Origin: Thermoanaerobaculia bacterium
Lineage (GTDB): Bacteria; Acidobacteriota; Thermoanaerobaculia; Multivoradales; Multivoraceae
DNA length: 64,000 nucleotides
Reading direction: 5' to 3'
NCBI GenBank assembly: GCA_022823665.1
Contig: JAJEHN010000036.1
Span: forward strand, 1-64,000
This document shows, piece by piece, positions 1 through 61,779 of the stretch (its first letter is position 1; every line of letters starts with the position of its first letter). The notes beneath the pieces are model-generated. The model worked only from the letters and a program-made list of their open reading frames with translations. It ran no database searches and was not told the origin of the DNA. The translations under genes and the position numbers were made by a program.

Positions 1-1535
1 CACCAGCGTGGTCGCCGACGCGAAGGTCGGAGCCTCGTTCACGTTCGTGACGGTCACCGTGATGGACACCGAGCCCGTGATGCCGTCCTCGTCGGTGGCG
101 GTGACGGTGACCTCGTAGACGTTGTCGGGGTCGTCGTCGACTGGATCCTCGTGGTCTCTCGCTACCATGGACAGCACGCCAGTCGTGCTGATGATCGCGA
201 AGTCGGCTTCGTCGGTCCCCGACTTGGTCCAGGTGACAGTGCCGCGATGGCCGGTCGTGGTAGGCGTCGGTCCTGTCCAGACGGCGTTCTCGGCGACGGT
301 GGCGTTGGCCAGCCCGCTGATTGTGATCGTCTCGGCCACGTCGGTGACGGTCAAAGTTACGGCGCGTGTCGCCGTGAGCGGGGTCTGACCAGGTTCGGAA
401 ACAACGACGTTGAAGGTGTAGCTGGCCTTCTGCTCGTGGTTGAGCATCGTGCCGGCGGCGAGGGAGATCTGGCCGGTTGAGGAGATCCGGAACGCCGAAG
501 CGTCCGTACCGCTGAGCGAGTAAGTGATTGCCGCCCCTTCCGGGTCCGTGGCCGTGACCGGCGAACCGATGTCCCCGGTCGTCCCCTCGGGCGCCGACAG
601 CGAGAGGGTGGTCGCCGAAGCGAAGGTCGGCGGTTCGTTGACGTTCGTGACGGTCAGCGTGATGGAGACCGAACCGGTGATGCTGTCTTCATCGGTCGCA
701 GTCACGGTAACTTCGTAGACGTTGTCGTTGTTGGCGTCCGCTGCGTCTTCATGATCGCGGGCGACCATCGACAGCACGCCGGTCGTGCTGCCGATGGTGA
801 AGTCGTCGGCGTCGGTTCCGGACTTGGTCCACGTCACGGTGCCGCGATGGCCGGTCGACGCAGGCGTCGGCCCGGTCCATGCGGCGTTCTCGGCGATGGT
901 GGCGTTGGCGAGGCCGCTGATGGTGAGCGTCTCGGCTACGTCGGTGACAGCCAGCGTGACCGCGCGTGTCGCCGTGAGGGGGTTCTGGCCGGGCTCCGAA
1001 GCAACGACGTTGAAGCTGTAGCTGCCCTTCTGCTCGTGGTTGAGGACCGTGCCGCTGGCGAGGGAGATCTGCCCGGCGGAGGAGATCTGGAACGCCGAGC
1101 CATCGGTACCGCTGAGGCTGTAGGTCAGCGTAGCGCCCTCCGGGTCCGTGGCCGTGACCGGCGAGCCGATGTTGCCGGTCGTCCCTTCCGGGACCGACAG
1201 CGCGAGCGTGGTCGCGGCGGCGAAGGCGGGCGGCTCGTTCACGTTCGTCACGGTTAGCGTGATCGACACGGAGCCCGTGATGTTGTCCTCGTCGGTGGCC
1301 GTCACGGTGACTTCGTAGACGTTGTCCTGGTCGGCGTCCGCTGCGTCTTCATGGTCGCGGGCGATCATGGACAGCACGCCGGTCGTGCTGACGATGCCGA
1401 AGTCGGCTGCGTCCGTGCCCGACTTGGTCCACGTCACCGTGCCGCGGTGGCCGGTCACTGTCGGCGTCGGCCCGGTCCAGGCGGCGTTCTCGGCGACGGT
1501 GGCGTTCGAGAGCCCGCCGATGGTCAGCGTATCGA
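1..1535 (-). repeat. 600-bp tandem repeat coding for cadherin-like domain pairs
   Basis: Near-identical DNA recurs at a 600-bp period. The stretch around 42-75 matches 642-675 and 1242-1275, and the stretch around 160-350 matches 760-950 and 1360-1550. Each unit encodes two cadherin-like domains of about 100 residues. High nucleotide identity between units points to recent tandem duplication or gene conversion and makes the copy number uncertain in a short-read assembly. The array continues past the left edge. Confidence 0.85.
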
Positions 1536-4500: not shown

Positions 4501-6525
4501 CTGGATCAGGAAGCCTGTTTCGTCCGAAGCGTTGTCCGTCCAGGTCAGGGTGACGCTGGTTGCCCCGTCGGCAGCGGCCACGAGATTCGTTGGAGCCGCC
4601 GGCACGCCGGTTGCAACGGTGACCGCGTCGGCGAACGCCGTGCCATGCGCGTTGCGCGCGCCGACCCGAAACATCCAGGACGTAGCCGCCGTCAGGCCGG
4701 TGATCGTGTCGGTTTCCACATCGGCGAGCAACTGCCGCGTGGTCCAGCTCTGGCCGCCCGTCCCGTACTGGACGTCGTAGCCGGCTTCGACCAGCGCGTT
4801 GTCCGTCCAGGTCAGCCGCACACTGTTCGAATCCAGGGCTACTCCGGCGAGGTCGCCGGGCGCCGTTGGCGGCCCGTCGCCGGGGGTCCGGACGGACCAG
4901 ATGTCGCTCTCGTTCGATCCGTGGGTGTTCTTCGCTACGACGCGAAACGCGTAGCGGGTTGCGGCCGCGAGGCCCGTGAGCGTGGCGGAGGTCGTGTTCG
5001 CGGTGAGCGTTGCCCCGACCTGCGTGCCGGTCTCCCACGATTCCAGCCAGGTCCTGTACTGCACCTCGAAGGTCTCCTCTATCGAGGAGTTGTCCTGCCA
5101 CGTCAGGCTGACGCTGGCGCCGCTGCCGGCGGGCGCCGCGGTTCCCGTGAGTCCCGAAGGAGGCGCCGGCGGCAGGTAGTCGCTCATTTCCGTGGCCGAA
5201 CCGACGGTCTGCTGGAGGGCGCGCTCGTTCTCGCGCTGGTTCGCGACGCCGATGTTCCAACTGTTCGGCGTTATCCGGACCGTGGAGAAGTAAGCCTCCC
5301 GTACGTAGTTGTGGGTTCCGTAGCTCATGATCGTCGCGATGTCCGGGTCCGGCGCCGTGTCGGTATGGCCGAAGGCGTACGGGTACACGGCGTCCTCGGG
5401 CTCGGCCGTGCCGCCGCCTTCGGGATCGTGGTTGCCGCCGAGAATGTGGCCGAGCTCGTGGGCGAAGATGGAGTTCCCGCTGCGGCTCGAGGAGTGGCAG
5501 GCAAGATCGGCGAACCCCAGTGCCCAGGGTGAGATGTCCTGCGGTCGGTGATCCCCGAGACGAAGGTACGCTGCGCCGCAGCGCGCCCAACTCGAGCCGT
5601 CGTGGATGAAGATCAGGACCGCGTCCGCTTCGTGCGTCTCCCTCAACAGCTTGATCTCGGCGATCTCGGAGATCGGATCGAGCCAGTCCCTGCCTCTTCT
5701 TGCCTCGGTCGAGTACCGCGCCGGCGCTGGCGCCGCGTGCGCGAGGTGAAGCGTTGCGTCGAACGATCCGTTGCGCCAGACGGAGTTCGTGTAGTCGATG
5801 GCGGCCTGCACGGCGGCGGCGTCCGATGTGGTCCAGTAGTTGGAGGCGTCCTGCGTGTACAGGACGAGGACGTCGAATCGGTGGGTCGTGGTTGAGGTTT
5901 GAGGTGCGGTAACGGTTGTCTGGCGGGAAGCGCCTGGGGTGACGGCGGCGTTCGTGATCGGGGCTGGATTCGTTGGGGTCAGGCTGGCCGAAGGCGGCGG
6001 TCGGGCGTCGCACCAGTCCCGCGGCTCGGTCGAACCAACTGCGTTGACCGCGTCGGGCTCCGTCACGAAGCCGGTTTCGTTCTCGGCTGCCACCTCGAAC
6101 TTGAACTGGCCCGGCTCGCCATAGCTCCCGATGAGCCAGCCGTCCTGAAGAGTCAGCACGACCGTCTCGTGAGTCGCCCCGATCAGGCGACCGGCCCAGG
6201 AAACGTTGCCCTCACCGCGGTCCTCGAACGCCGTGCGCTCGGCCAAAAGGGCGGGGCCGTCGCCGGGTGTCGGAAGTTCCAGGAGGCGGGGGCCCGTTCG
6301 CAGCAGCTCGGGGCGGACGCTTATGGAGTGTTTCCGCGGCGTGGGTGACCTTGCGGTCGCGCCAGCGTCGACAGCGCTCGGTGACCCTCTCGCCTGTTCC
6401 TCCGGGACGCTGCGTTCAAAGCGAAAGAGAGTCTGAGCATCCGCCACGGCGGGCCAGATCAACGGCAGCAAGAGGACGACTGACGAGAGTGTCTGGCCGG
6501 TGCGATTCGGCAGTGCGGACATCAT
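1..6525 (-). CDS. Giant secreted reprolysin-like metalloprotease with 13 FN3 and several cadherin-like repeats (C-terminus off the left edge)
   Basis: One uninterrupted minus-strand frame covers at least 2,175 codons and leaves the window before a stop. It starts at tandem ATG codons (6523-6525 and 6520-6522) followed by a signal peptide ending near ADAQT. After a proregion of about 200 residues comes a zincin domain with HELGHILGGNHD at about residues 356-367 and a downstream IMSYG Met-turn, the HExxHxxGxxHD pattern of metzincins of the reprolysin/ADAM type. I count 13 fibronectin type III domains (about 5170 down to 1548), each with a WxDNSxxE core, then cadherin-like repeats of two alternating types containing NVYEVTVTATDED and EGTTG..GSPVTATDPEG. 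The likely role is extracellular or surface protein degradation or adhesion. I cannot see whether a sorting tail follows. The paralogue at 7964-12523 shares the layout. Confidence 0.9.
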   Translation of the reverse strand, partial: MMSALPNRTGQTLSSVVLLLPLIWPAVADAQTLFRFERSVPEEQARGSPSAVDAGATARSPTPRKHSISVRPELLRTGPRLLELPTPGDGPALLAERTAFEDRGEGNVSWAGRLIGATHETVVLTLQDGWLIGSYGEPGQFKFEVAAENETGFVTEPDAVNAVGSTEPRDWCDARPPPSASLTPTNPAPITNAAVTPGASRQTTVTAPQTSTTTHRFDVLVLYTQDASNYWTTSDAAAVQAAIDYTNSVWRNGSFDATLHLAHAAPAPARYSTEARRGRDWLDPISEIAEIKLLRETHEADAVLIFIHDGSSWARCGAAYLRLGDHRPQDISPWALGFADLACHSSSRSGNSIFAHELGHILGGNHDPEGGGTAEPEDAVYPYAFGHTDTAPDPDIATIMSYGTHNYVREAYFSTVRITPNSWNIGVANQRENERALQQTVGSATEMSDYLPPAPPSGLTGTAAPAGSGASVSLTWQDNSSIEETFEVQYRTWLESWETGTQVGATLTANTTSATLTGLAAATRYAFRVVAKNTHGSNESDIWSVRTPGDGPPTAPGDLAGVALDSNSVRLTWTDNALVEAGYDVQYGTGGQSWTTRQLLADVETDTITGLTAATSWMFRVGARNAHGTAFADAVTVATGVPAAPTNLVAAADGATSVTLTWTDNASDETGFLIQYRAAGAPAWTNHPTEPAADAASAAVTGLTAGVDYEFRVFAKNGSALSQPSNVASLGSLGAPDAPSALSSTGANSSSVSLSWTDNASDEVGFDVEYRNGGGAWTTVATTEPDWTSWRIGNLSPSTDYDFRVVARNAAGSAASNVVSRRTGPAAPSSLRAERTRGQWRLHWQDNSDDEVEFDVYYQTASDEWDDTWGYLKSPARNSTSTDTELTDQNYFFVMYAFIDSAKTSSPGNVVAVGALSRPAIPQKATAVADGSTAANVSWRDNSANEGGFRVQHRRLVAGESPGAWTSTVVGADTASTTVTGLVASATYEFRVTSFFQPTDTAEASLSRSSTFTTRMPPAAPTALSAQVQSTSAELAWTDNAAHETGFKVEYRERGTSAWTLSSSPSSDTASATVTGLTTGTDYEFRVIATNANGDSTPSNVVSTAPAGPPAAPSGVTVSPTGSTSVTVSWSDNSSDETGFDVEHRMGSDAWTTTVAAANATTAAVTGLMASASYEFRVSARNLHGSAPSSAVSLTMPPAAPSGLLATPASSTSVSLSWTDESTDETSFAVQYRASTGTTWITFGAEAAADAESATVTGLTAGTSYDFRVLAKHSSNGLSSPSNVAAATTPAPPAAVSGLTTTSVNSTSVGLSWTDNSSDEAGFDVEYRTGGGSWTTAATTEANWTSWRVGNLNSSTDYDFRVVARNANGTTPSGVTTRKTGPPAPSSLTASKSGGTWRLAWQDNSSDEAEFDVYYQTAGDEWDGTWTYLQSPSRNSTSTDTGLSGQNYFFTLFAYVSSTRSSSPSNIATVGTLPRPAIPQELVAGGAGSTSADVSWRDNSTNEGGFRIEYRRLSAGQSPGSWTASVVAADVGSAIVTGLSASRTYEFRVTSFLQATDTANASLSRSSTFIMRMPPARPTSLQVLRQSTTADLAWTDNASHETGFRVEYRERGTSVWTLSSTAPTDATSATVSGLTTGVDYDFQVIAFNANGDSTPSNVGIGDVIDTLTIGGLSNATVAENAAWTGPTPTVTGHRGTVTWTKSGTDAADFGIVSTTGVLSMIARDHEDAADADQDNVYEVTVTATDEDNITGSVSITLTVTNVNEPPAFAAATTLALSVPEGTTGNIGSPVTATDPEGATLTYSLSGTDGSAFQISSAGQISLASGTVLNHEQKGSYSFNVVASEPGQNPLTATRAVTLAVTDVAETLTISGLANATIAENAAWTGPTPASTGHRGTVTWTKSGTDADDFTIGSTTGVLSMVARDHEDAADANNDNVYEVTVTATDEDSITGSVSITLTVTNVNEPPTFASATTLSLSAPEGTTGDIGSPVTATDPEGAAITYSLSGTDASAFRISSTGQISLAAGTMLNHEQKASYTFNVVVSEPGQTPLTATRAVTLTVTDVAETITISGLANATVAENAVWTGPTPTTTGHRGTVTWTKSGTDEADFAIISTTGVLSMVARDHEDPVDDDPDNVYEVTVTATDEDGITGSVSITVTVTNVNEAPTFASATTLV
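1545..4625 (-). repeat. Duplicated five-domain FN3 block (offset about 1,680 bp)
   Basis: FN3 domains 9-13 (about 1545-2945) match FN3 domains 3-7 (about 3225-4625) one for one at the DNA and protein level, with a spacing of about 1,680 bp. For example, the segment near 2178-2320 aligns with 3850-3990, and 1860-1900 aligns with 3540-3580. One FN3 domain (number 8) lies between the blocks. This looks like an internal segmental duplication of six FN3 modules that has since diverged moderately. Confidence 0.8.
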
Positions 6526-6805: not shown

Positions 6806-8002
6806 ATGAGGCGGAGACCGACCTGGGTGTGGTGGACCTCGGGCAAGGACGCGGCATGGGCGCTGCACACTCTACGGTCGGACTCTCGTTGGGAGATCGG
6901 AGGTCTCCTGGCCGCCGTCACCAGGGACGACGGACGATCCTGGTTGCATGGCGTCAGGATCGAGCTTCTTCGGGAACAGGCCGCGGCCGTCGGATTGCCC
7001 CTGAGGACGATCGAAGTGGATCCAGGAGCCGACCCGCCGGATTACGACTCTGTGGTGCAAACTGAACTGGCCGGGCAGCGCTCGGAGGGCGTGGACTTCA
7101 TTGCCTTTGGCGACCTCTTCTCGGCGCGCCGCCGAGCACGCCGAATCCAACTCCTGCGGGGGACCGGCCTTGAAGGCGTGTTCCCGCTTTGGCACAGGGA
7201 CACCCGCGAGCATGCCCGACAGATGCTCGGGGCCGGGCTGGCTGCCCGCGTGTGTTCGCTCACCCCAACCGACCTGCCGGCCGATCGGGTAGGCGCGCGC
7301 TTCGACGAGTCCTTCCTGGAGTATCTACCCGCCCATATCGATCCTTGCGGCGAGCACGACGAATTCCACACCTTCGTCGAGTGGGCGCCGGGATGGCGGC
7401 ATCGTGTCGATGTGGCGCCCGTGCGTCGGCTCGAGCGCTACGGCCTGGTCATGGCCGACTGCCGGACGGAGCCGGCCACCACCGGGCCAGCCGGATTCGG
7501 CAACTCGGGCCTTGACGGCGACACCGCGTTCGACCCATTCGAGTACTTTGAACGATTGCGCCGGGTCCGAAGACACGTTCTGCGGAACCTGAGCATCGAC
7601 GCGACCGTCGGGAAAGCGGCCGAAGTGGCAGAGTTGGCGCCTTCAAGTTTCAGGCGTTACTTTCGCAAGCGCGTCGGCACGACCTATGGAGTCTGGTTGG
7701 CTGATCAGAAGATGGAGTGCGCCGCCCGGCTGCTCAGAGAGAGCGATGCCAGCGTTGCCGAGATCGGGAGTACGGTTGGTTACCGCTTCAGGCGGAGTTT
7801 TCGCAGGGCGTTCAGGCGACGCTACGCCTGTAGTCCGTCTCGTTACCGTGACCTGTTCCTCGCGGGTCGCTTGCCGGAGATGGCTCGGAAAGGGGACGCG
7901 CCGGCGGTCCTTGATTGCGCTCGGCGTGAGGAGGTTGTGTGTGGGGCTCCTGATGGCCGGTCTCTACCCGCAACCGAAGGCCCCGGTGTCGGCCCGGGAT
8001 AG
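6806..8002 (+). CDS. Dph6/COG2102-type ATP-pyrophosphatase fused to an AraC-family DNA-binding domain
   Basis: 398 residues from the ATG at 6806; a GTG four codons upstream (6794) is an alternative. Residues about 1-220 match the DUF71/COG2102 N-type ATP pyrophosphatase family, whose eukaryotic and archaeal members are diphthine-ammonia ligases. Visible motifs are a PP-loop variant TSGKDA (usually SGGKDS), LHGVR, GDLFSARRRARR, FPLWHRDT and DPCGEHDEFHTFV. Residues about 245-360 form an AraC-type double helix-turn-helix (AEVAELAPSSFRRYFRKRVG, then VAEIGSTVGYRFRRSFRRAF). Bacterial COG2102 proteins have no diphthamide to make and their role is unsettled. The fusion suggests a regulator that senses an ATP-dependent amidation substrate, or a retired enzyme used as a ligand sensor. 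The PP-loop changes (first G to S, last S to A) fit the latter. The 3' end overlaps the convergent protease gene by 39 bp. Confidence 0.85.
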   Translation: MRRRPTWVWWTSGKDAAWALHTLRSDSRWEIGGLLAAVTRDDGRSWLHGVRIELLREQAAAVGLPLRTIEVDPGADPPDYDSVVQTELAGQRSEGVDFIAFGDLFSARRRARRIQLLRGTGLEGVFPLWHRDTREHARQMLGAGLAARVCSLTPTDLPADRVGARFDESFLEYLPAHIDPCGEHDEFHTFVEWAPGWRHRVDVAPVRRLERYGLVMADCRTEPATTGPAGFGNSGLDGDTAFDPFEYFERLRRVRRHVLRNLSIDATVGKAAEVAELAPSSFRRYFRKRVGTTYGVWLADQKMECAARLLRESDASVAEIGSTVGYRFRRSFRRAFRRRYACSPSRYRDLFLAGRLPEMARKGDAPAVLDCARREEVVCGAPDGRSLPATEGPGVGPG

Positions 8003-11000
8003 GGCCGTTCGCCCGCCCTCGTTGACGTGAGACCAGCGCTCGCCGTCCGGCCCCGTGACGCCCAGATGGAAGGCCAGATCGGTCGCGGGCGCCGAGAACA
8101 CCCAGCGCCGACCGTTGACGGCGCAGCCGTCAAGCACCTTGATCAGCACCTCCACGTTGTCTCGGTCGAAAAAGTAGAGAAGCGCCGACGACTCGCTCGG
8201 CAGCCCCCAGTCGCGAGCCGACTGCACCGTTCCGTCCGGCAGGACGATGCACATGTCGATCCGGTAGCCGTTCGCGAGTTCGACGCCGGGGCCTTCCGGT
8301 TCGCAAGCCGGCGGGTCAGTGTTTGCGGCGGCGTGTGCAGCCTTCGACAGGGCGGCGAGCCCCGGTTCGGCCCGCGATGCCGGCGATTCGTCAACCGGAT
8401 GCGTAGCGAATGCGCCGGCGTCGGATCTTGAGCTCTCGCCTCGGCGAAGCGGGTGAGCAAGCCCTTCCCTCGCCGTCAGCCGGCTGGCGGCAGTGACGCC
8501 CGGAGCACCGGCGGGGCCAGGTTCGCAGGGGAAGGCCGCCGTGTCGCCCGTGGTCTGCGCCGTCCGGCCAGCGGCGTTGCTCTGCTCGAAGCGCCTGCCG
8601 GTGCTTCGTTCCACGAGCTCGAGCCGGAAGGCGAGGTTCGTCACGGGCGCGGTGAAGACCCAGCGATGGCCGTTCACGGCGCAGCCGTCGAGGACCTTGA
8701 GGAGAATCTCGGCGTTATCCCGGTCGAAGAAGTAGAGGAGGGCTGAATGGTCGGACTCCAGGTGGTAGTTGGCGGCCGCGGTCTGAAGCCCCGAAGGCGT
8801 CGCGAAGCACATGCGCACGTCGTAGCCGCCGCTCAATGTGGTGACCGGTCGCGGGATGCAGTCCGTTGCCGCGCCCGGACCGGGCGGCTCGCTCAGTCGG
8901 ACGGTGGCGGTCTCGCTGAATGCCGTGGCACCGTCGCCGATTGCGCCGACCCGTAGCTCGTAGCGGCCCTCGGGCTGGAGGTTGTCGAGAACGACGGACG
9001 TCGCGTTCAGCGGCGCCACGGCGGCCGCGGTCCAGGGAAAGGCGCCACCCTGGACATCGGACGGCGCCTCCGGCTCGCCCTCTTCCGACGCCTGCCGGTG
9101 CTCGATCATGAAGCCTCTTTCTGCCGTCGAGTTGTCCCGCCACGTGAGCCGCAGGGCGGCAGGGCCGAGGATCTCCACGTCGAGGTGGCTCGGCGGGGCC
9201 AGCGACAGGTCCACGGCGGCCGGCTCGCTCCGGCCCGCGCCGCGACCGTTCCTGGCCGCCACCTGGAACTCGTGGCGGCCGCCCCGGGGCAGACCGCCGA
9301 CGGCCGCGCGCTCGGCGTTTCGTTCAAGCGAGCGGACCAGCCGCCAGGCCCCCTGGGCCTGTCGGTGGAAGACGTCGTAACCGTCTTCATCCGTCGCGCG
9401 GTCGGTCCAGGTCAGCAGCACGGCGTTCCGCGTCAGCAGCTCGGCTCGGAGGTCGACCGGCGCCGTCGGATTAGTCGCTGGTCCAGGCGGTGGTGGCTGC
9501 GGCGGTGGTGGCGGCGGTGGTGGCGGTTGCGGGTGAGGCGGTCCTCCACCTCCTCCACCTCCCGGTGGCTGCGGCGGTGGCGGCGGTGGAGGTGGCTGCG
9601 GCGGTGGTGGCGGAGGAGGTGGCTGCGGCGGTGGTGGCGGAGGCTGGTTTCTCTCGGTGACGTTCACATTCACCGTCCGGGTTGCGTTCAGCGGCGGCGA
9701 CCCGGCGTCGGACGCCACGACGTGGAAGCGGTAGGACCGCCTGGACGCGTAGTCCAGGGTCGTGCGCGGCGGCACGGACAACTGCCCCGAGGCGGCGTCC
9801 ACCGCGAAGCTCCCGGCGTCCGTGCCGCCGAGGCGGTAGGCCAGCGCTCCGCCCTCCGGGTCGGTCGCGGTTACCGGCGCGCCGATGGCGCCGGTCGTTC
9901 CCTCGCGGACCTGCAACGTCAGTGCGCCCGCCGGATACGAAGGCGCCTCGTTGACGTCGGTTACGGTGACCGTGATGGAATCGGAACCGGTAACGCCGTC
10001 GTCGTCGGTTGCCGTCACCGTGACTTCGTAGACGTTGTCCCGGTTGGCGTCCCGGGCGTCTTCGTGGTTCTGGGCCTGGAGTGTCAGAACGCCCGTGCCG
10101 GCGACGATCCCGAAGTCGGCGGCGTCCGCGCCGGACGCGGCCCACGTGACGGCGCCGTTGTGGCCGGAGACGCCCGGCGAAGCCGAGGTCCAGGCCGTGT
10201 TCTCCGGGACCGTGGCGTTGGCCAGACCGGTGACCGTCAGGCTTTCGGGAACGTCCGTGACGTTGACGTGGACCGTCCGGGTGGCGGTGAGCGGCGGTGC
10301 TCGGCCATCGGAGGCGGTGACCTCGACGGTGTATGAGGTCTTCGTCTCGTAGTCGAGCGTGACGCCGGAGGCCACGGACAACCGGGCCCACGTTGCGTCG
10401 ATGGCGAAGGACGCGGAATCCGGCCCGCCGAGGGTGTAGGTCAGCGAGTCGCCATCCGGATCGATCGCCGTCACCGGCGAGCCGAAGGCGCCCGTCTCGT
10501 CCTCGGGCACGTTGACGGTGAGCGCCGCGGCCTCGTACTCGGGCGCCTCGTTCACGTCGGTCACGGTCACGGCGGCGGAGACGGTCACCTCGAACAAGTC
10601 GATGTCGGCGACGGTCAGGGCGACCTCGTAGACGCCGTCGCCGTCGGCGTCCGCCGAAGCTTCATGGTCCTGCGGCGCCAGGCTCACCGAGTTCGTTGCA
10701 GAGGTCGTCCTGGTCGAGGCAAGGGCGAAGTGGGCGGCGTCGGCGCCCGACAGCTCCCAGGAGAGAGCGCCTCGATGGCCGCTCAGCGACGCCGTGGCGC
10801 TCCAGGCGGCGTTCTCCGGCGTCGAGCCGTCGGCCAGTCCGGTCAGCGTGAGAGTGCGCGTGCCGGGGGTGCGGATGGAGACCGGCTCGGCGAAGCGTTC
10901 GCCGTACGAGTTCGCTGCGGCAACACGGAACTCGTAGCGAGTGGCCAGGTCAAGGCCGGTCAGGATTGTGGTCGTCACGCCGGCCGAGAGGACCGCGCCC

Positions 11001-12519
11001 TCCGTCCAGTCCGACGCTCCCGCCCTTCGATACTGAACGCGGAAGGATGTCTCGCTCGAGATGTCGGTCCAGGTCAGTTCCACGCTCCCCTGTCCGCCGT
11101 CTTCCGAAGCGACGCCCGCGAGGTCGGCCGGCCTGGCGGGCGGGAGATAGTTGCTGAAGGTCGAGGCCTCCCGCATCAACTGCGGCAGCGCCCGCTCCAT
11201 TTCGGCGCTGTTCTCCGCTCCGATGGTCGTGTCGTCCGGCGTGATCCGGATGCTCGAGAAGTAGGGGACGACCCTGGGGGAATCGATGACGTAGCCACGG
11301 GTACCCATGATGGTCAGAACCCTCTGGCTCCTGACTCTGGTCTCGTATCCCCTGGCGTAGGGGAGGCGCGGATTCGAGCCGCTTCTCCCGGTCTGGTGCG
11401 AGCCTCCCATGAGATGGCCGACCTCGTGGGCGAACACATGGGCGTGCCTCCCCAGACAATGGTGGTAGTAGTTCAGCATGCCGAAGGCCCACTCCACCTG
11501 GTTGCTCTCATGCTCGCCGGGCGGGGGGACCCGCCATGCCAGGCCGCAGAGACCGATGGACCGCTGCTTCGTGATCCACATGACGATGTCGGCGCTGTGG
11601 ACGTCGCGCAGGTCGAGGATGTCGCCCCTTATCCGGAGCTCCTCGAGTTGCGGCGCATATCCCCAGCTCGTGCCGTCCCACGGAATGAAGCGGACGTTGA
11701 CCCGCTCAGCGCGCGCCAGGCGGAACGAAGCGTTGGTGATCGCTGCGTTTCGCAAGGCCGAGTTCGCCGTATCGATCAGGTTCTGGGCTTGGGCGGCGGC
11801 GTTGGCTTGGCCCCAGTGAGCCTCCGCCGCGGCGTCGTAGACGATGAGCAGATCGACGATGGTGGCGGCCTCTTCGGAGGTGGGTGAATCGCGACCGGCG
11901 AGGCCATCGTGCGCCCCAAGGCGCGCGCTGCTTGCTCCGCTGGCGTTCAGACGAGAAGCGTGCTCTGAATCCGTGGGCTCATGGACCGAGCAGTAGGACG
12001 CCTCTTCCGGAAGGTCGCCGTCCGTACTCGCCTCCGCTAGCACCTGACCCCGGCCGCTCGCCGCCGCGACGAGGTCGAAGACCGGCTCGGCAAGTTCACC
12101 GAAGCTGCCGGCAAGACTCCCGCCTTGCAGGGTGAGAACGACCGTCTCGGCCTGGGCGCCCCCGACGCGACCGGCCCACATCGCGTTGCCCTCGCCCCGG
12201 TCCTCGAAGGCGGCGCGATGCACCACGAGCCGTTCGCCGGCGGGTGTCGGAAGGATGAGCCTCGCCGGTCCGGAGCGAAGCAGAGCGAGGTCTACCTCGA
12301 CCGGGTAGGCGAGCTTCCCTCCGGGCCCTTCGGAGGAAACCGTCGCCTTCGCCATCCCTTCCGGCCCTGCATCGGCCGGGGCCGCTTCCGCAAACCTGAG
12401 GAGCTCCTGGCCGACGGCGGGCCCGGCGGCCGTCCCGAGCAGCGCGGCAGCGGAAAGTGCCAGGCAAACGAGGCCCTTCCGGATTCCGCGCCGCGGCGGT
12501 TGCCGGTGGCGGGCGTTCC

Positions 12520-16751: not shown

Positions 16752-19700
16752 CTACAACTCGAACCGCAGGCCGATGCTGAGGACCCGGCCCAGGGGGTTG
16801 TGGGTCGAGGGGTCGTAGTTGAGTTGACGGAAGACCCGGGGCGGATCCTCGTCGCCGAGGTTGAGAATCGAGGCGAAGAGGGTCGCCTTGTCGCCTGGCA
16901 GGGTCCAGGAGACGTGGAGGTCGTGGGTGGCGTGGGCGTCGATGGGGTAGTCGTCGCCCCAGGGGGCCGGGGCGTCGTGGACGTAGGAGTCGGTGTAGTT
17001 GACGTGCCAGCGGCCGGTGAACTGCCCCACGGTGTAGCCGGCGAACAGGCGGCCCTTGAACTCGGGCAGGGCGCGGGCGAGGGAGGTGTCGTAGTTGAGC
17101 CGGCCCTTCGCGTCGTAGGCCTCTCCGAGTTCCCAGCCGTCGATCCGCCAGGACAGGGTGTGGGTGCCGGAGGCGCCCAGGGTGAGGCGGCCGGGGCCCG
17201 CGTTCATCTGGAGGTCGGCGCGGAAGTCGATGCCGTCGGTCTCGATGTCGGGGCCGTTGACGATCCGCACCGCGAGGGTGTCGAGGTTCTCGAGGCTGGG
17301 GACGCCGCCGCTGATCGTCAGCCCGTCGAACCAGGGTGAGGCTTCGTCGCACAGCGGATGCTGGGCGGGCCGACAGGCGAGGCCGAGGATGGAGTTGAAG
17401 GGCTCAATGACGAGCGGGTCGGTGAAGTCGTAACGCCAGTAGTCGACGGTGGCGAAGACGCGGCCACTGCCGCCGCCGAGGCCGCCGCGCTCAAAGACCA
17501 GGCCCGTGTTGAGGGTCGTGGCCGACTCCGGGTCGAGCGTCGGGTCGCCGTGGATGTGGATCGGCTTGAAGGTGCCGATGCGGCCGATGAAGAAGCGCGA
17601 CGTGTCGGCGATGCCATCGATCGTCTGGTTCAGCGTCGGGCCGCGGAAGGTCGTGCCGAAGGAGCCGCGGAGCGCCAGGGCATCCGTCGCCTGCCAGCGC
17701 AGCGCGACCTTGGGGTCGAGGCTCGAACCGACATCGCCGCCGTAGTCCTCGAAGCGGAGTGAGACCTGGCTTTCGACCGAAGGGACGAGCGGCAACGAGA
17801 GTTCGCCGAACACGGACCCGATGCCGCGATCGTCCTCGATCGGGAAGGCGGGCGGCAGGTAGGCGAACACGCCCTCGCGCTTCTCGCACGTCGTGATGTC
17901 GGGACCGCCCGGGCAGGGGTAGATCGCGATGTCGTGCAGGGCGCCGCCCCGCGGTGTCGGGGCGCCGACCGTGTAGGGCCGCAGTTCGTACGTTTCTCCG
18001 CGCCACTGAACTCCGGCCGCGTACTCCGCCGCGCCGCCGGGAAGGCTCCAGTCGAGCAGGCCGCTCGCCACCGCTTCCACGACGAGCAGGGAGGTCTCGC
18101 CCCGGTTCCCGAGGATCGTCGTCAGGTAGTCGTGCAGGGAGCCGTTGTCGAAGGCCGGGTCGTAATCCGGGTTCGAGGCGTTCGGCACCAGGGGATGGGG
18201 GCTGATCGAGTTGGAGAACGGGATCCAGTAGCGGCAGTCTCCCTGGCCCGCATGCCGGCGCAGCGTGTCCAGGGAGAAGCTGAGGTTGCCGCCCGCGTCG
18301 TACTCGTTTGGCACCTGCTCTTCGCAGGCGAGGCCGCCGAGGCCGGCGAGCGCCCGACGGGCGCGGTAGTGCAGGGCGTCGCCGTCTTCGAACCTGCGAA
18401 CGGAGCTCGACCAGGAGGCCCGGAAACCCCAGAGGGTCTCGCCGGTCACCCCCTCCAGATCGAACGCGAACCGCTCCGTGTCGGACTCGCGGATGTGGCT
18501 TCGCAGGGGGCCCTCCTGGCCGAACATCCGGCCTCGAATCCAGGCCACTTCCTGCCAGGCGGGGTCGATTCCCCTCGCGTCCTGGGCGCCTCCGTCTCCC
18601 CGCCAGCCGCAGTACGGAGCGTCGCAGGAGGCGTAGGCGCCGTAAAGCTCCGGGTAGAGCCGGGCCATGTCGACGAGCCCCGGGTTGTTCGCCCGCACCG
18701 AGCGGGTGAGATCGACCACCTTGTTCGGCGGATAGCCCGGCGAGGTCTGCCAGGAAGGCACGTCGCCCGTGGCGAAGAGAACCTCGGCGGCGACGTGCCA
18801 GCCTCCCTCCGTGTCCCAGGAGGCTTCCGTGAACCACTGGCCGCGGCGGGTGTCCTGCACCAGGTTGTCGAACGGCGTGTACTGGACCCGGCAGAGCGGG
18901 CTGTCGACGCTGCTCACCGCGCCGCCGACGCGCTCGCAGTTCGGGTCGCGGATCGCCGGCGCGCCGGAGAGTGGGTAGAAGACGGCCGGCCGTCCCGTTC
19001 CCGACCAGCCGCCCCGGGGATTCTCGGCGTAGGGTCTGATCGCCCAGTCGCGGTCGCGGAGCCGGATCGGACTCCGGCGCGAGAGGCCGAGGGAACTGAC
19101 GGCGTGGCCGCGGCCGCCGGCGAACGGCCCGCCGCCGATGACTCCCAACTCGCCGTCGCCGTTCGAACCGTCGATCACGCTGTGCTTGCCCTCGAAGGAA
19201 AGACCGTCGAAGTGGCTTCGGGTGATCACGTTCATCACGCCGGCAATGGCGTCCGAGCCGTAGGTCGCGGCGCCGCCGTCACGCAGGAACTCGACCTGCT
19301 CGACCGCGACCATGGGCAGGGCGTTCGTATCGACGATGAGCTGCGCCTGGTCCGGGATGGCGCCAGGAGACCAGGTCAGCCGGTCTCCGTTCAGGAGCAC
19401 GAGGGAACGGCTCGGCCCGAGACCGCGCAGGTTGAGCGTCGACCGGTCCTCGTTGGTGCGCGCCCCGAACTGGTCGGATTCTAGGTCCGCGCCGAGACTG
19501 AAAGACAGGTTGCGGATGACGCCCAGCATGGACGGCGAGCCTTCCGCCTCCAGATCCTCGCGTGACAGGACCGAAACCGGCTGGGCCGCGTCCTCGGGGG
19601 TTCCCGGGATCCAGGAGCCGGTGACCGTGACCGTGTGGCTGAAGGTCTCGACTTCGTGGCTGTGGTCGTCGTGTTCGTGATCGGCTTCCCCCTCCGCGAG

Positions 19701-19844
19701 GTGCTCGTTCCCCCGTTCAGCGGCGTGATCGGGGTCTGCCTCCTGGGCCGCGCCGACGGCCGCCCAGAGGGCGGCGATCAGCACCAACAGGAACGCGAAC
19801 GGGGGCTTCGGACGAACTTCGGGGTAGGCGAGAGAGGGGGCCAC
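16752..19844 (-). CDS. TonB-dependent outer-membrane receptor with His-rich N-terminus
   Basis: 1,030 residues: signal peptide (FLLVLIAALWAAVGAAQ), then a His/Asp/Glu-rich mature N-terminus with histidines at 40, 48, 56, 58, 61, 63 and 70, then the plug (HTVTVTGSWIPGTPEDAAQP, LNLRGLGPSRSLVLLNGDR, EFLRDGGAATYGSDAIAGVM) and a 22-strand-type barrel ending in GLRFEL. It would import a bulky or scarce ligand across the outer membrane using TonB energy. The His-rich leader is reminiscent of metal-binding extensions, so zinc, copper or a metal complex is possible, but this is inference. It is the last gene of a four-gene minus-strand run; the first gene of that run (21691-24750) is a close paralogue. 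The 53-bp gap upstream suggests co-transcription. Confidence 0.93.
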   Translation of the reverse strand: MAPSLAYPEVRPKPPFAFLLVLIAALWAAVGAAQEADPDHAAERGNEHLAEGEADHEHDDHSHEVETFSHTVTVTGSWIPGTPEDAAQPVSVLSREDLEAEGSPSMLGVIRNLSFSLGADLESDQFGARTNEDRSTLNLRGLGPSRSLVLLNGDRLTWSPGAIPDQAQLIVDTNALPMVAVEQVEFLRDGGAATYGSDAIAGVMNVITRSHFDGLSFEGKHSVIDGSNGDGELGVIGGGPFAGGRGHAVSSLGLSRRSPIRLRDRDWAIRPYAENPRGGWSGTGRPAVFYPLSGAPAIRDPNCERVGGAVSSVDSPLCRVQYTPFDNLVQDTRRGQWFTEASWDTEGGWHVAAEVLFATGDVPSWQTSPGYPPNKVVDLTRSVRANNPGLVDMARLYPELYGAYASCDAPYCGWRGDGGAQDARGIDPAWQEVAWIRGRMFGQEGPLRSHIRESDTERFAFDLEGVTGETLWGFRASWSSSVRRFEDGDALHYRARRALAGLGGLACEEQVPNEYDAGGNLSFSLDTLRRHAGQGDCRYWIPFSNSISPHPLVPNASNPDYDPAFDNGSLHDYLTTILGNRGETSLLVVEAVASGLLDWSLPGGAAEYAAGVQWRGETYELRPYTVGAPTPRGGALHDIAIYPCPGGPDITTCEKREGVFAYLPPAFPIEDDRGIGSVFGELSLPLVPSVESQVSLRFEDYGGDVGSSLDPKVALRWQATDALALRGSFGTTFRGPTLNQTIDGIADTSRFFIGRIGTFKPIHIHGDPTLDPESATTLNTGLVFERGGLGGGSGRVFATVDYWRYDFTDPLVIEPFNSILGLACRPAQHPLCDEASPWFDGLTISGGVPSLENLDTLAVRIVNGPDIETDGIDFRADLQMNAGPGRLTLGASGTHTLSWRIDGWELGEAYDAKGRLNYDTSLARALPEFKGRLFAGYTVGQFTGRWHVNYTDSYVHDAPAPWGDDYPIDAHATHDLHVSWTLPGDKATLFASILNLGDEDPPRVFRQLNYDPSTHNPLGRVLSIGLRFEL

Positions 19845-19897
19845 TCTTCAGGCTCCCTTGGGTTTCGTGGCTTGTCGCGGGATCGTGTCCCGGCGGG

Positions 19898-20392
19898 TCA
19901 GCTCACGATCCGGTTCGGGTTCATGCCCGAGCAGCCGTCGTGTCTCGCTGCCGTCGAGCAGCGGCCCGTGTAGCAGGAGTCGCCGGCGAATCCCTGCGGC
20001 CGCACGTTCGCGATCCAGCGTTCGACGTTCGCCTGCACTTCGGCCGCGGTCTGGCCGTGCTCAGTGATCAGGACCTTCGACAGGCCCCACCAGGCCCGCC
20101 CCAGGTTGCACTGGCAGCAGCAGGTGTAGGCCGAGCGGTCACTGCAGCAGGGCGCCGGGATCGGGGTCAGCGCGGCGCGCTTGATCTCTTCCTGCGCCGC
20201 GGTCAGCTCGATCTCCGCGTCGTACGCGATCAACCGCTCCATCGGCAGCGAGAGCAGCGTGGCAACCGGGTCGTCGCTGACCGTGGCCGCGGCCGGGGAC
20301 GGCGGGTTGCCGCAACTCCAGACCGCCGGCGCGGCCAGGAGGACGGCGACGGTGGCTGCGAAACGGACGAGACGATCAGCACGGCGGCTCAT
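19898..20392 (-). CDS. Small exported cysteine-rich protein of unknown function
   Basis: 164 residues from ATG 20392. The N-terminus has a basic region and a hydrophobic stretch (RFAATVAVLLAAPAVWSC); Cys27 could be a lipoprotein acylation site, although AVWSC is a poor lipobox. The mature part holds nine further cysteines: C82, C83, C91, C92, C93, C95, C140, C145 and C154. They are grouped around YTCCCQCNLGRAWWGL and near the C-terminus, with a predicted helix AAEVQANVERWIANV between. I do not recognise a family. The cysteine clusters suggest metal binding or a disulfide core. It sits 53 bp upstream of one His-rich TonB receptor and 40 bp downstream of a CHAT-like gene, so it may be a periplasmic or outer-membrane partner of that uptake system. 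Confidence 0.75.
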   Translation of the reverse strand: MSRRADRLVRFAATVAVLLAAPAVWSCGNPPSPAAATVSDDPVATLLSLPMERLIAYDAEIELTAAQEEIKRAALTPIPAPCCSDRSAYTCCCQCNLGRAWWGLSKVLITEHGQTAAEVQANVERWIANVRPQGFAGDSCYTGRCSTAARHDGCSGMNPNRIVS

Positions 20393-20432
20393 GGCGCGCG
20401 ATCTTATCCCCGATTGACCAGTCGCGTTCGGT

Positions 20433-21686
20433 TCAACCGCAGTCGTCGGCCGAACCCCGATAGGCACGGTAGCCCGCCCAGAAGTACGGATGGGAGGCGT
20501 CGAACTCCACCGGTTCCCGTTCTCCTCCCTGATCGAAGACGAGGGGATCGGCCAGCAGCCGGAGTTGCGCTTCCCGGAGCGCGGCGGCCGTTTGCGTTCC
20601 CTCAGCGACGCGGTTGTAGAAGGCGGCGAACAGGTGGGTGGCGGATTCGTCGACGACAGGCCACAGCGACGCGACGACGGAACTCGCACCGGCGGCGCCG
20701 AAGGCTTCGACGAACGGACCGGGGCCGATGCCGTGGCCTCCGGTGTCCAGACCCGAGAGGACGACGAGCGATTCGCGTTCGAGCGTGAGTCTCGACTCCA
20801 ACTCGCCGGCCGTCACGGGAATGGCCTGTTCGTCATACCTGGCGGGGGAAAGGAGCAGTGCCGTACCGGCGGGGCGTTTGGGGTCCACGAGCGCCTCCAC
20901 GGCGACGTGCAGGAACTGGACGGCGTAGGTGTCAGTGGACTCCCAGAAGAGGGCCGGCGAAGCGGATTGACCGAAGCGGGCGATCACCGGCAGGCCCAGG
21001 GCATCGATCGTATTGGCCTGATTGCGGCGCGCGGCGTGCCGGCGCCAGGAGATGCCGCCGTCGCTCATCGAGGCGCCGAGGGGGCGTGCCGGCGGGCGGT
21101 AGACGGCGTCCGCAAGCGCCAGCGCGACAGGCCGTTCACTGGGCGAGTCGGCGGTGGTGCCCGCGCCCAGCGCCGGGTCGATCCAGCACAGAGTCCGGGT
21201 TTCGACCAGGAAGCGGCCCCGGGAATCGAGCGAGCGAGGCGCCCGGATGGCGCCGAACGGCAGGTCGCTCAGCGGTCCGGTGGCGGAAACGCCGAGCCGG
21301 GAGGCGTTTCCGATCTGGTCGGCGGCCCGTGCGAGCAGAAGCTCGCCCAGCTCGTCTCCGAGGCGAACGATCCGACCGAGAGAAGCCGGTGGGCGAAGCA
21401 ACGCGAGCTCGCGGATTTCCGCGACGAGAGGCTGCAGGTCTTCGGCGGTCGTGTCCAGGGTCAGCGTTGTGGGCGCCGCGCCGGCCGGACCCGGAACGAC
21501 GGTCAGGCGCACCGGGCGACCGGGCGAGGCGTCGTAGATCAGGGTCGCGACGCCGGCGACGGTAGGCCGGAAGTGCTCGGGGAGTGGCGTCCCGTCTCCG
21601 CCTTTCTGCGCCCATGCGGCCGGTCCGCCAAGAACCAGAAGACCCAGCATCCAGGCTCGCCGGCGTACCCGGTTTCGGCCTCGCAA
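20433..21686 (-). CDS. CHAT-domain protein lacking both catalytic residues (pseudo-protease)
   Basis: I place the start at TTG 21684-21686, 4 nt after the upstream receptor's stop. This gives 417 residues and a complete signal peptide with a basic N-region (RGRNRVRRRAWMLGLLVLGG, cut near AWAQ); ATG 21650 is an alternative that loses the charged region. The C-terminal half follows the CHAT (caspase HetF associated with TPRs) pattern: FLHVAVEALVDP, VVLSGLDTGGHG, FGAAGASSVVASLWPVVDE, LREAQLRLL and HPYFWAGYRAY. In active CHAT proteases these positions read LHxATHG and LSACETG. Here the histidine is Glu264 and the cysteine is Leu313, so peptidase activity is unlikely. No TPRs are evident. An exported pseudo-CHAT between TonB receptors may be a scaffold or ligand-binding partner. 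Confidence 0.82.
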   Translation of the reverse strand: MRGRNRVRRRAWMLGLLVLGGPAAWAQKGGDGTPLPEHFRPTVAGVATLIYDASPGRPVRLTVVPGPAGAAPTTLTLDTTAEDLQPLVAEIRELALLRPPASLGRIVRLGDELGELLLARAADQIGNASRLGVSATGPLSDLPFGAIRAPRSLDSRGRFLVETRTLCWIDPALGAGTTADSPSERPVALALADAVYRPPARPLGASMSDGGISWRRHAARRNQANTIDALGLPVIARFGQSASPALFWESTDTYAVQFLHVAVEALVDPKRPAGTALLLSPARYDEQAIPVTAGELESRLTLERESLVVLSGLDTGGHGIGPGPFVEAFGAAGASSVVASLWPVVDESATHLFAAFYNRVAEGTQTAAALREAQLRLLADPLVFDQGGEREPVEFDASHPYFWAGYRAYRGSADDCG

Positions 21687-21690
21687 CGTC

Positions 21691-24600
21691 CTAGAACTCC
21701 AACCGCACGCCGAGGCTGAGGACCCGGCCCAGGGGATCGTGGGTCGAGGCGTCGTAGTTCGCCGGGCGGAAGATCGGCGGCGGATCCTCGTCGGAGACGT
21801 TGAGAATCGAGGCGAAGAGCGTGGCACGATCACCGGGTAGAACCCACGAGGCGTGGACGTCGTGGGTGGCGTGGGCGTCGACCGGGTAGTCGGCGCCCCA
21901 CGGTGGCGGCGCGTTCTGGAGGAAGGAGCCGGTGTAGTTCAGGTGCCAGCGGCCGGTGAACGGGCCGCGCGAGTAGCCTGCGAAGAGCCGGCCCTTGACT
22001 TCCGGGAGAGGCCGGGCGAGGGAGGTGTCGAAGTTCAGCCGGCCCTTCGCGTCGTACGTGTCGCCGAGTTCCCAGCCGTCGATCCGCCAGGACAGCGCGT
22101 ACGTGGCGGATGCGCCCACGCGGAGGCGGCCCCGCCCCGCATCGGCCTCGAAGTCGGCCCGGAAGTCGATGCCGTCGGTCTCGATGTCCGGCCCGTTGAC
22201 GATCCGCACCGACACGGAGTCGAGATTCTCGATCGTCGGTACGCCGCCGCTGATCGTCAACGCGTCGAACCAGGGTGAGCCGGGGTCGCACAGGGGATGG
22301 TCGGCGGGCGGGCAGGCGAGACCGATCAGGGTGGCGAAGGGCTGGATGACCAGTGGATCGCTGAAGTCGTAGCGCCAGTAGTCCAGCGTGACGAAGAGCC
22401 CGCTGCCGGCGCCGGCCAGTCCGCTCCGCTCGAAGACCAGGCCGGCATTGAACGTCGTCGCCGACTCCGGGTCGAGCGCGGGATCGCCATGGATCCGGAC
22501 CGGCTTCGCCGTGCCGATCGGACCGACGTCTTCGCGCGACGTCTCGGCGATACCGGAGACCGTCTGGTTGAGCGTCGGGCCGCGGAACGTGGTCCCCAGC
22601 GAACCGCGCAGCGCCAGCGCTTCGGTTGCCTGCCAGCGCAGCGCGACCTTCGGATCGAGGCTCGATCCGACGTCTCCGCCGTAGTCTTCGAAGCGCAGCG
22701 AGATCTGGCTGTCGAGCGAGGAGGCCAGCGGCAGCGACAGTTCGCCGAAGACGGACCCGATGCCGCGGTCTGCTTCAGTCGAGAAGCCGGGCGGCAGGTA
22801 GACGAACAGGCCGTCCGGGTTGTCGCAGGAGGTGATCTCCGGGCCGCCCGGGCAGGGATAGATCCCTATGTCGTGGAGCGCACCGCCGCGGGGCGGCGCG
22901 GCGTCGACCGAGTAGGGCGTCAGTTCGTAGGTCTCGCCGCGCCACTGGACGCCGGCCGCGTACTCCGCCGCGCCTCCGGGAAGATCCCACCCAAGGAGAC
23001 CGCTGGCCACGGCTTCCAGGACGAGAAGGGTCGTTTCGCCGCGAGTCCCCAGGGTCGTCGTCAGGTAGTCGAACAGGTCGCCGTTGTCGAACGCCGGGTC
23101 GTAGTCGGGGTTCGTGACGCCGGGCACGGCGGGATGGGGCCTGATCGAGTTGGAGAAGGGAATCCAGTACCTGCAGTCGCCCAGGCCGGCATGCCGGCGC
23201 AGCGTCTCGGGCGAGAAGCTCAGATTGCCGTCGCCGTCGTACTCGTTCGGCGCCTGGTCCTCGCAGGCGAGGCCGCCAAGCCCCGCCAGGGCACGCCGCA
23301 GGCGGTAGTCGAGGACGTCGCCGTCCTCGAGCTTGCGCTCCGCGGCCGACCACGAGGCGCGGAACGCCCACAGGGTCTCGCCGGTCACTCCCTCGAAGTC
23401 GAAGGCGATCCGTTCGGTCTCGGACTCGCGGAGGTAGCTGCGCAGCGGTCCCTCCTGGCCGAACGTCCGGCCGCGAATCCAGGCCACCTCCTGCCAGGCG
23501 GGATCGATGCCGGCGGCGTCCTGGCCGGCGCCGTCGCCGCGCCACAGGCAGTAGGGCGCGTCGCAGAAGGCGTAGGCCCCGTAGAGTTCCGGGTACCGCC
23601 TGGCCATGTCGATCAGGCCCGGGTTGTTCGCCCGCACCGAACGGCTCGTGTCCATGACCTTCGTCGGCGGATAGGACGGCGAGGTGAACCAGGACGGCAC
23701 CTCGCTGCGGGCGAGCAGGACCTCGGCCCCCAGGTGCCAGCCGCCCTCGGTGTCCCAGGAGGCTTCGGTGAACCACTGCCCGCGGCGGGTGTCCTGCACC
23801 AGGTTGTCGAATGCCGTGTACTGGTAGCGGCATAGCGGACTGCCGGGACTGCTGGCCGCGCCGCCGACGCGCTCGCAGTTCGGGTCCCGGATCCCGGGGT
23901 CGCCGGAGAGCGGATAGAACGTCGCCGGCCGGCCGGTTCCCGACCAGCCGCCGCGCGGGTTGTCGGCATAGGGGGTGAGCGCCCAGTCCCGGTCGAGGAA
24001 GCGGATGGGGCTGCGCCGCGCGAGGCTGAGCGAACTGACCGCATGGCCCCGGCCGGCTGCGAAGGGCCGGCCGCCGATCAGGCCGAGTTCGCCGTCGCCG
24101 TCCGAGCCGTCGATCACGCTGTGCCTGCCTTCGAACGAGAAGCCGTCGAAGTGGCTGCGGGTGATCACGTTCATCACGCCGGCGATCGCGTCCGAGCCGT
24201 AGGTCGCGGCGCCGCCGTCGCGCAGGAACTCGACGCGCTCGACGGCGACCATGGGCAGGACGTTCGTGTCGACCATGAGCTGCGCCTGGTCGGGGATCGC
24301 CCCCGGCGACCAGGTGATCCGGTCGCCGTTCAGGAGGACGAGGGAGCGGCTCGCGCCGAGACCGCGCAGGTTCAGGCTCGAGCGGTCCGCGCCGGCGCGC
24401 ACGCCGAACTGCTCGGATCCGAGATCCGCGCCGAGACTGATCGGGAGGTTGCGGATGAGATCGAGCACGCTGGGCGATCCCTCCGCCTCCAGGTCGTCGC
24501 GCGTCAGGACGGAGACCGGCTGCGCCGCGTCCTCGGGAGTGCCGGGAATCCACGAGCCGGTGACCGTGACGGTGTGGCTGAAGGTCTCGATGTCGTGGTC

Positions 24601-24750
24601 GTGGTGCTCGTGGTCGTGGTCGGCCCCGGTCGCCTCGCCGTGGTCGTGTTCGCCGGCCGGCGCCGGGCTGTCCTCCTGAGTCACTCCGGGCGCCGCACAG
24701 AGAAGGATGAGCGCCGCCGCCAGGCGGAACGGGCGGGATGCCATCGACAT
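21691..24750 (-). CDS. TonB-dependent outer-membrane receptor with His-rich N-terminus (paralogue)
   Basis: 1,019 residues with the same architecture as the receptor at 16752-19844: signal peptide (AAALILLCAAPGVTQ), His/Asp-rich segment with histidines at 35, 37, 45, 47, 49, 50, 52 and 59, plug (HTVTVTGSWIPGTPEDAAQP, VEFLRDGGAATYGSDAIAGV) and a barrel ending GVRLEF. Identity with the paralogue is high along the whole length, including the extracellular loops with paired cysteines. It is the first gene of the four-gene run; the pseudo-CHAT gene starts 4 nt after its stop. It diverges from the enoyl-CoA hydratase gene across 44 bp, which must hold the operon promoter. The two receptors may recognise related ligands or variants of one ligand. 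Confidence 0.93.
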   Translation of the reverse strand: MSMASRPFRLAAALILLCAAPGVTQEDSPAPAGEHDHGEATGADHDHEHHDHDIETFSHTVTVTGSWIPGTPEDAAQPVSVLTRDDLEAEGSPSVLDLIRNLPISLGADLGSEQFGVRAGADRSSLNLRGLGASRSLVLLNGDRITWSPGAIPDQAQLMVDTNVLPMVAVERVEFLRDGGAATYGSDAIAGVMNVITRSHFDGFSFEGRHSVIDGSDGDGELGLIGGRPFAAGRGHAVSSLSLARRSPIRFLDRDWALTPYADNPRGGWSGTGRPATFYPLSGDPGIRDPNCERVGGAASSPGSPLCRYQYTAFDNLVQDTRRGQWFTEASWDTEGGWHLGAEVLLARSEVPSWFTSPSYPPTKVMDTSRSVRANNPGLIDMARRYPELYGAYAFCDAPYCLWRGDGAGQDAAGIDPAWQEVAWIRGRTFGQEGPLRSYLRESETERIAFDFEGVTGETLWAFRASWSAAERKLEDGDVLDYRLRRALAGLGGLACEDQAPNEYDGDGNLSFSPETLRRHAGLGDCRYWIPFSNSIRPHPAVPGVTNPDYDPAFDNGDLFDYLTTTLGTRGETTLLVLEAVASGLLGWDLPGGAAEYAAGVQWRGETYELTPYSVDAAPPRGGALHDIGIYPCPGGPEITSCDNPDGLFVYLPPGFSTEADRGIGSVFGELSLPLASSLDSQISLRFEDYGGDVGSSLDPKVALRWQATEALALRGSLGTTFRGPTLNQTVSGIAETSREDVGPIGTAKPVRIHGDPALDPESATTFNAGLVFERSGLAGAGSGLFVTLDYWRYDFSDPLVIQPFATLIGLACPPADHPLCDPGSPWFDALTISGGVPTIENLDSVSVRIVNGPDIETDGIDFRADFEADAGRGRLRVGASATYALSWRIDGWELGDTYDAKGRLNFDTSLARPLPEVKGRLFAGYSRGPFTGRWHLNYTGSFLQNAPPPWGADYPVDAHATHDVHASWVLPGDRATLFASILNVSDEDPPPIFRPANYDASTHDPLGRVLSLGVRLEF

Positions 24751-61514: not shown

Positions 61515-61711
61515 CTGGAAGTACCTCTCGAGACTGCCGGAAGGCGGGTCGCGAACGACTCGAACCTCCCATGCGGGTGAAGGATCAGGCTACAACAAAC
61601 GGCACAACGTGCGGGAGGGCGCTGGATTGCCGCCGGAGCCGGCAAACCCGTTGCAGGCTCCGTGTTTTGCCCCAGCCCCCACCTGGCCAGCACCCTGCGC
61701 CGCGGCACTTG

Positions 61712-61763
61712 CTTCGTGGCGCTCGACCGGGCGCCCGGCGCCGACACTTCGTTCGGCCTCTAC
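61712..61763 (+). pseudogene. 52-bp relic of the HemW-like radical SAM gene
   Basis: This stretch matches 57882-57933 at 47 of 52 positions, including 42 nt (61722-61763) with two mismatches, and reads in the same frame as FVALDRAPGADTSFGLY where the intact gene has FAALDRAPGADTSLGLY. After TAC the similarity ends and a stop (TAG) follows at once. It sits in the 265-bp gap between the two paralogous TonB receptors, exactly where a second copy of the radical SAM gene's environment would be expected after cassette duplication. Confidence 0.8.
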
Positions 61764-61779
61764 GTAGCTGGCGCCGGCT

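Follow-up and report, generated by a model that had tools for sequence, protein, structure and literature searches.

What do four genes for envelope proteins, encoding two paralogous TonB-dependent receptors (TBDRs), a CHAT-family protein and a small cysteine-rich (Cys-rich) protein, do together, and does the unit handle a metal? The genes lie in the window, by which we mean the whole 64,000-nucleotide stretch analyzed here (positions 1 to 64,000 of contig JAJEHN010000036.1, assembly GCA_022823665.1, from a Thermoanaerobaculia bacterium). The host genome belongs to a host-associated Acidobacteriota genus whose hosts we take, from isolate names and general knowledge, to be sponges and corals. 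We find that the four-gene unit is real and genus-specific and that it is probably metal-handling. The evidence for a metal comes from the genomic neighborhoods of the Cys-rich family, which in other lineages is linked to copper-type efflux pumps, and not from the histidines of the receptors. All four open reading frames (ORFs) are on the minus strand, running from 24750 to 16752 in the following order:

21691..24750, minus strand: TBDR1, a TonB-dependent receptor of 1019 amino acids with a signal peptide, a plug (residues 73–192) and a barrel.
20433..21686, minus strand: CHAT pseudoprotease of 417 amino acids with a TTG start, a signal peptide (about residues 1–26) and a complete predicted CHAT fold.
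19898..20392, minus strand: Cys-rich probable lipoprotein of 164 amino acids with a lipobox-like C27, nine conserved cysteines and M157.
16752..19844, minus strand: TBDR2, a TonB-dependent receptor of 1030 amino acids with a GTG start, paralogous to TBDR1.

The intergenic gaps are 4, 40 and 53 bp, and an export signal is found at the start of each of the four proteins. The unit is flanked by a divergent enoyl-CoA hydratase gene on one side and a convergent acyl-CoA dehydrogenase gene on the other. A promoter and terminator scan was uninformative, and a plasmid search gave no match. The initial annotation of this DNA had described four same-strand genes with these gaps, export signals on all products, a pair of paralogous His-rich receptors, a dead CHAT protein and a 164-residue protein with ten cysteines, and each of these descriptions is borne out by the ORFs and by the analyses below.

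The window genome was compared with twenty other genomes of the genus (21 in total). The CHAT and Cys-rich genes adjoin in all 21. TBDR1 is present in 15 and missing in G008, G011, G012, G015, G016 and G019, while TBDR2 is missing in three of 20 (G012, G015 and G019; G011 was left out as its contig ends there). The gap between TBDR1 and the CHAT gene is 4–57 bp in all measured genomes that carry TBDR1, and the spacing between the Cys-rich gene and TBDR2 ranges from an overlap to 54 bp in the measured genomes, with one exception at about 308 bp. The ratio of nonsynonymous to synonymous substitution rates (dN/dS) among genus orthologs indicates purifying selection on all four genes. Three features take the arrangement beyond chance: the short gaps recur across the genus where the genes are present, selection on all four is purifying, and both catalytic residues of the CHAT protein (His and Cys) are replaced in 21 of 21 orthologs.

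Outside the genus, neither the CHAT ortholog nor receptors of the TBDR1/TBDR2 type (E 1e-60) were found in the relatives searched. The Cys-rich family, by comparison, occurs in 52 of 99 relatives (E up to 0.01; the genus is counted in and the weakest matches are probably in part chance) and in 24 of 396 phylum genomes (1e-8), and beyond the genus its gene is present without the CHAT ortholog and without these receptors. From these distributions, the operon of four genes is specific to the genus and built around the CHAT–Cys-rich pair, whose Cys-rich member has the wider distribution. The linkage as an envelope unit that had been proposed is thus conserved, with CHAT–Cys-rich adjacency throughout the genus and receptors at short gaps in most genomes. 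The proposed co-occurrence of the four families stands for the CHAT and Cys-rich genes, always together in the genus, and fails for the receptors, which some members lack, and for the Cys-rich gene, which elsewhere occurs without the CHAT ortholog and these receptors. An obligate four-gene system was rejected on the same grounds, three genus genomes being without both receptors. Several early branches of the genus tree (midpoint-rooted, no outgroup) are without TBDR1, so receptor gain and loss are not distinguishable. A VapC-like PIN-domain toxin gene was also seen inside the operon, between the CHAT and Cys-rich genes, at no fewer than four loci (L032, L033, L034 and L110), and seven other genus genomes have about 800 bp at the same position.

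The CHAT protein matches the Pfam CHAT family (PF12770) with an E-value of 5.6e-33. Its TTG start is followed by a signal peptide; the alternative ATG at 21650 would leave no charged n-region. In the alignment of all 21 orthologs the catalytic His is replaced by Glu (FLHVAVEA) and the catalytic Cys by Leu (VVLSGLDTG). The protein therefore has the sequence family and the predicted fold of CHAT proteases with the His–Cys dyad absent. The AlphaFold2 model (predicted TM-score 0.85) displays a two-subdomain fold over residues of about 26–415, and its structural matches include TPR-CHAT/Csx29 (Z about 25, root-mean-square deviation 3.4, 318 residues), separase (Z about 21) and DdvA (Z about 21). 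Its dN/dS is mostly 0.26–0.35, clearly below 1, which together with the intact predicted fold identifies it as a maintained pseudoprotease; as judged from the alignment and the model, it is conserved, catalytically dead and has kept its fold. In the receptor-less pair G015/G019 the CHAT dN/dS is 0.87 at a dS of only 0.03, below that of the flanking genes. This value hints at relaxed constraint, with recombination possible instead, and was left unused.

The larger CHAT relatives aligned from related genomes keep both catalytic residues in 18 of 18 cases. About 10 of these 18 have a plausible start that is followed by an export signal (signal peptide or lipobox), called by a hydrophobicity heuristic and reading and not by SignalP. 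Export of a CHAT protein, which had been considered exceptional in the initial annotation, was rejected as an unusual feature on this count, and exported CHAT proteins with an intact His–Cys dyad look widespread in related genomes. The larger relatives (L127–L146) span roughly 900–1200 amino acids with a C-terminal CHAT domain, reach up to 15 matches per genome, and often carry export signals, with PDZ-like N-termini in some.

The ten cysteines of the 164-residue Cys-rich protein are C27, C82, C83, C91, C92, C93, C95, C140, C145 and C154. Across 18 diverse members of its family, nine Cys and one Met (M157) are invariant, the cysteines being the most conserved residues, and they follow the pattern CC-x7-CCC-x-C-N ... 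W-G ... C-x4-C ... G-C-x-G-M, in which the C-x4-C spacing is one or two residues longer in some members. A Cys equivalent to C27 lies at the end of the signal peptide in 21 of 21 genus members. Some members have a canonical lipobox (LSGC in G004, AAGC in G013) and many have Trp at position −2. Because this lipobox-like Cys is present throughout the genus, the protein is probably a lipoprotein. Searches of Pfam, NCBIfam and the PDB gave no match to the Cys-rich protein, no plausible Pfam match was found for the 18 members (E up to 5; best chance match 0.11), and known Pfam Cys-rich metal-binding families such as the PCYCGC-motif family have no profile match among them. These proteins form a family absent from Pfam and NCBIfam. 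The AlphaFold2 core is confident (predicted local distance difference test score mostly above 90), and Foldseek and VIA-align with this model returned no credible match to a solved fold, which does not in itself show a new fold.

The evidence for a metal is provided by the neighborhoods of this family outside the genus. A CusA-type pump or Cu-type P-ATPase is encoded no more than 7 kb away at ten of 30 non-genus loci, where about 1% is expected per locus (P below 2e-9 even assuming 8 pumps per genome). The ten loci represent at least six families and vary in layout, which makes a single inherited neighborhood unlikely. The Pfam domains of their neighbors comprise HMBD, CusB domains, ACR_tran, YHS and Cation_efflux. 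Five loci are especially tight. At L118 the Cys-family gene overlaps the end of cusA. At L117 (G039) it follows cusA on the same strand, separated from it by a single P-II-like gene. The gene at L051 is flanked by a YHS/HMBD P-ATPase on one side and a CDF exporter on the other. Directly after cusCBA operons lie three tandem Cys-family genes at L036 (G079, about 9013–10879) and two at L041 (G085). Ligand conservation and this genome context together predict that the Cys-rich family consists of envelope proteins that probably bind a soft metal, probably copper.

We hypothesize that the constant core of the locus acts as two envelope proteins, in which the Cys-rich probable lipoprotein would bind a soft metal, of which Cu(I) is the likeliest, and the exported dead CHAT protein would serve as its protein-binding partner or scaffold, perhaps also contacting the receptors. 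The two paralogous receptors are probably co-transcribed with this core in most genus members and would import a ligand that carries, or arrives with, the metal, which the lipoprotein would then capture. Metal binding by the lipoprotein alone we consider rather likely. For the whole chain, in which the core captures a soft metal that the receptor ligand may deliver, our confidence falls somewhat short of even. The most far-reaching version is improbable: a new envelope metal-acquisition system of host-associated Acidobacteriota, in which a lipoprotein of a copper-efflux-linked family now serves uptake. In it, the paired receptors would pass a metal or metal-bearing molecule on to the nine-cysteine lipoprotein, and a pseudoprotease of separase/CHAT fold would be the periplasmic adaptor between receptor and lipoprotein.

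Several observations weigh against this scheme. Its genus locus is not itself beside a pump, the nearest genes being acyl-CoA dehydrogenases, enoyl-CoA hydratase, GST-like and RF3 genes, and 20 of the 30 non-genus loci are without a pump in the sequence seen, some of their contigs being short. The L117 member (9729–10169), which sits beside a cus cluster, has no CCC triplet (CCDDNGLPCN), so the CCC cluster is not always needed; this natural variant may be used to ask which cysteines matter. Within the genus, the CHAT dN/dS exceeds that of its neighbor genes, and the toxin gene or the segment of about 800 bp separates the CHAT and Cys-rich genes in 11 of 21 genomes. G012, G015 and G019 keep the CHAT–Cys-rich core without either receptor, which indicates that the receptors are dispensable, and neither TBDR1 nor TBDR2 contains CxxxM or HxM, the copper motifs of OprC.

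Plug (PF07715) and beta-barrel (PF00593) domains score above the gathering cut-off in both receptors, and the two are 78% identical. The leader of TBDR1 is rich in His, Asp and Glu, with 8 His between residues 35 and 59, and that of TBDR2 has 7 His between residues 40 and 70, in each case before the TonB-box region. Mature TBDR1 has ten cysteines, probably paired in barrel loops. In the PDB, the receptors closest to them in sequence are siderophore, colicin and B12 receptors, with the plug region as the matched part. Within the genome, the closest other receptors share 31–34% identity, similar Cys-pair spacing and acidic His-rich leaders. Three receptors of the same genome that are unlinked to the operon also carry a His-rich leader, so this leader was rejected as a metal signature specific to the operon. 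The metal connection proposed in the initial annotation thus gains support from the copper-efflux neighborhoods of the Cys-rich family and loses it from the receptor leaders, two of the unlinked receptors being paralogs that do not stand beside metal genes.

The alternative that survives best, and which we regard as unlikely yet worth serious attention, holds that the receptors import an organic nutrient unrelated to metal, perhaps a host-derived peptide, sugar or vitamin, and were later recruited to a CHAT–lipoprotein pair whose own role is envelope metal or thiol protection. The same receptor subfamily occurs twice elsewhere in the genome, one unlinked paralog beside a sugar-type ATP-binding cassette (ABC) operon and a peptide-type ABC gene, and the other beside a gene resembling a pyrroloquinoline quinone (PQQ)-type dehydrogenase. 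No metal gene was recognized beside either, the neighbors in both cases having been read from sequence and not profiled. The presence of the His-rich leader on 5 of the 30 plug-bearing ORFs, together with the three genomes that keep the CHAT–Cys-rich pair without receptors, also favors such recruitment. The TBDR1–CHAT gaps, in contrast, are uniformly short and argue for co-regulation of receptor and core.

A second alternative concerns the core itself. The Cys-rich protein could be disulfide-stabilized or redox-active, with a part in thiol stress or oxidative folding, and its proximity to cus genes could reflect shared stress regulation. Its export, the high conservation of its cysteines and the GCxGM and CYTGxC motifs, which could form disulfides, would fit. 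Vicinal CC and CCC-x-C clusters, however, are ill-suited to simple disulfides, the genes to which the family is linked are specifically those for metal export, with heavy-metal binding domains, and Pfam places no redox family among the members, which makes this explanation quite improbable.

The least probable account is surface signaling from an occupied receptor to the CHAT pseudoprotease as a periplasmic sensor, perhaps like DdvA of Myxococcus, which is the best PDB sequence match of the CHAT profile (1.3e-14), has the same fold and, as a transmembrane anti-sigma factor with a CHAT domain, is a precedent for CHAT in envelope signaling, but both receptors are without an STN domain (Pfam finds Plug and barrel only), no sigma or anti-sigma gene is present among the nine profiled neighbor genes, and the CHAT protein here is exported, only 417 residues long and has no anti-sigma domain that we could find.

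Soft-metal capture by the core, possibly fed by the receptors, is therefore the reading we retain. Taken singly, the parts of the unit all belong to known kinds or behave like them. Their combination, the conserved envelope pseudo-CHAT protein and the uncurated Cys-rich family are undescribed, as judged from the libraries and papers searched; a literature search returned no paper under Candidatus Multivorans thiocomprendens and none on exported inactive CHAT proteins. An uncurated exported Cys-rich family tied to copper-type efflux loci is now identified. So is a conserved envelope pseudoprotease of the CHAT fold, whose known structures are mostly those of CRISPR-associated proteases and separase. 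Should the receptors prove to be linked to the core in function, outer-membrane import would here employ a dead CHAT protein as a partner, and the locus would offer a testable route to metal handling in sponge symbionts.

Elsewhere in the window, two related very large proteins are encoded at 7964–12355 and 1–6246, both on the minus strand. The former combines a Reprolysin (M12) domain carrying the zinc-protease motif HEVGHLMGGSH with fibronectin III and cadherin domains, a eukaryote-like mix that is unusual for a symbiont surface. A pair of neighboring TonB-dependent receptor genes from another subfamily (VTAQRVEE type) occupies 59121–63998, also on the minus strand; a break at about 62565 divides the second gene into two ORFs.

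Among known systems, the CHAT protein shares its complete two-subdomain fold with the TPR-CHAT proteases (Csx29/Craspase) and separases (PF12770), from which it differs in having no TPR part, in being exported and in the replacement of both catalytic residues. The TPR-CHAT comparison also differs in context, with no CRISPR or defense genes among the profiled neighbors here and no PADLOC match. DdvA (PDB: 8rot, 8rw5), its nearest PDB relative by sequence, is likewise a CHAT module in an envelope protein; it is, however, a large membrane protein whose aligned motifs (ATHG, AACEGG) still contain the His and the Cys, whereas the protein here is a small exported pseudoenzyme. DdvA is the anti-sigma factor of the extracytoplasmic function (ECF) factor DdvS, and its inducing signal is unknown (PMC4374960).

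The receptors resemble the copper importers OprC and CrtA/BfrG (PMC8610252, PMC12914433) in being TonB-dependent, in their possible copper link and in their small operon. The OprC-type copper site consists of CxxxM and HxM (PMC11836926), and both are missing from TBDR1 and TBDR2. CrtA/BfrG-type receptors adjoin a PepSY_TM gene in more than 75% of loci (PMC12914433), whereas none is present among the profiled neighbors here. Signaling receptors such as FecA and FpvA combine an STN domain with adjacent sigma and anti-sigma genes, which TBDR1 and TBDR2 do not have. The closest parallel to the Cys-rich protein is with the accessory modules of CusCBA systems (CusF, DUF3347 and DUF2231 accessories). 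Although no Pfam family covers the protein, and in the genus it does not stand beside pump genes, its relatives are found inside or next to CusCBA and Cu-ATPase loci, where their neighbors include DUF2231 and P-II-like genes.

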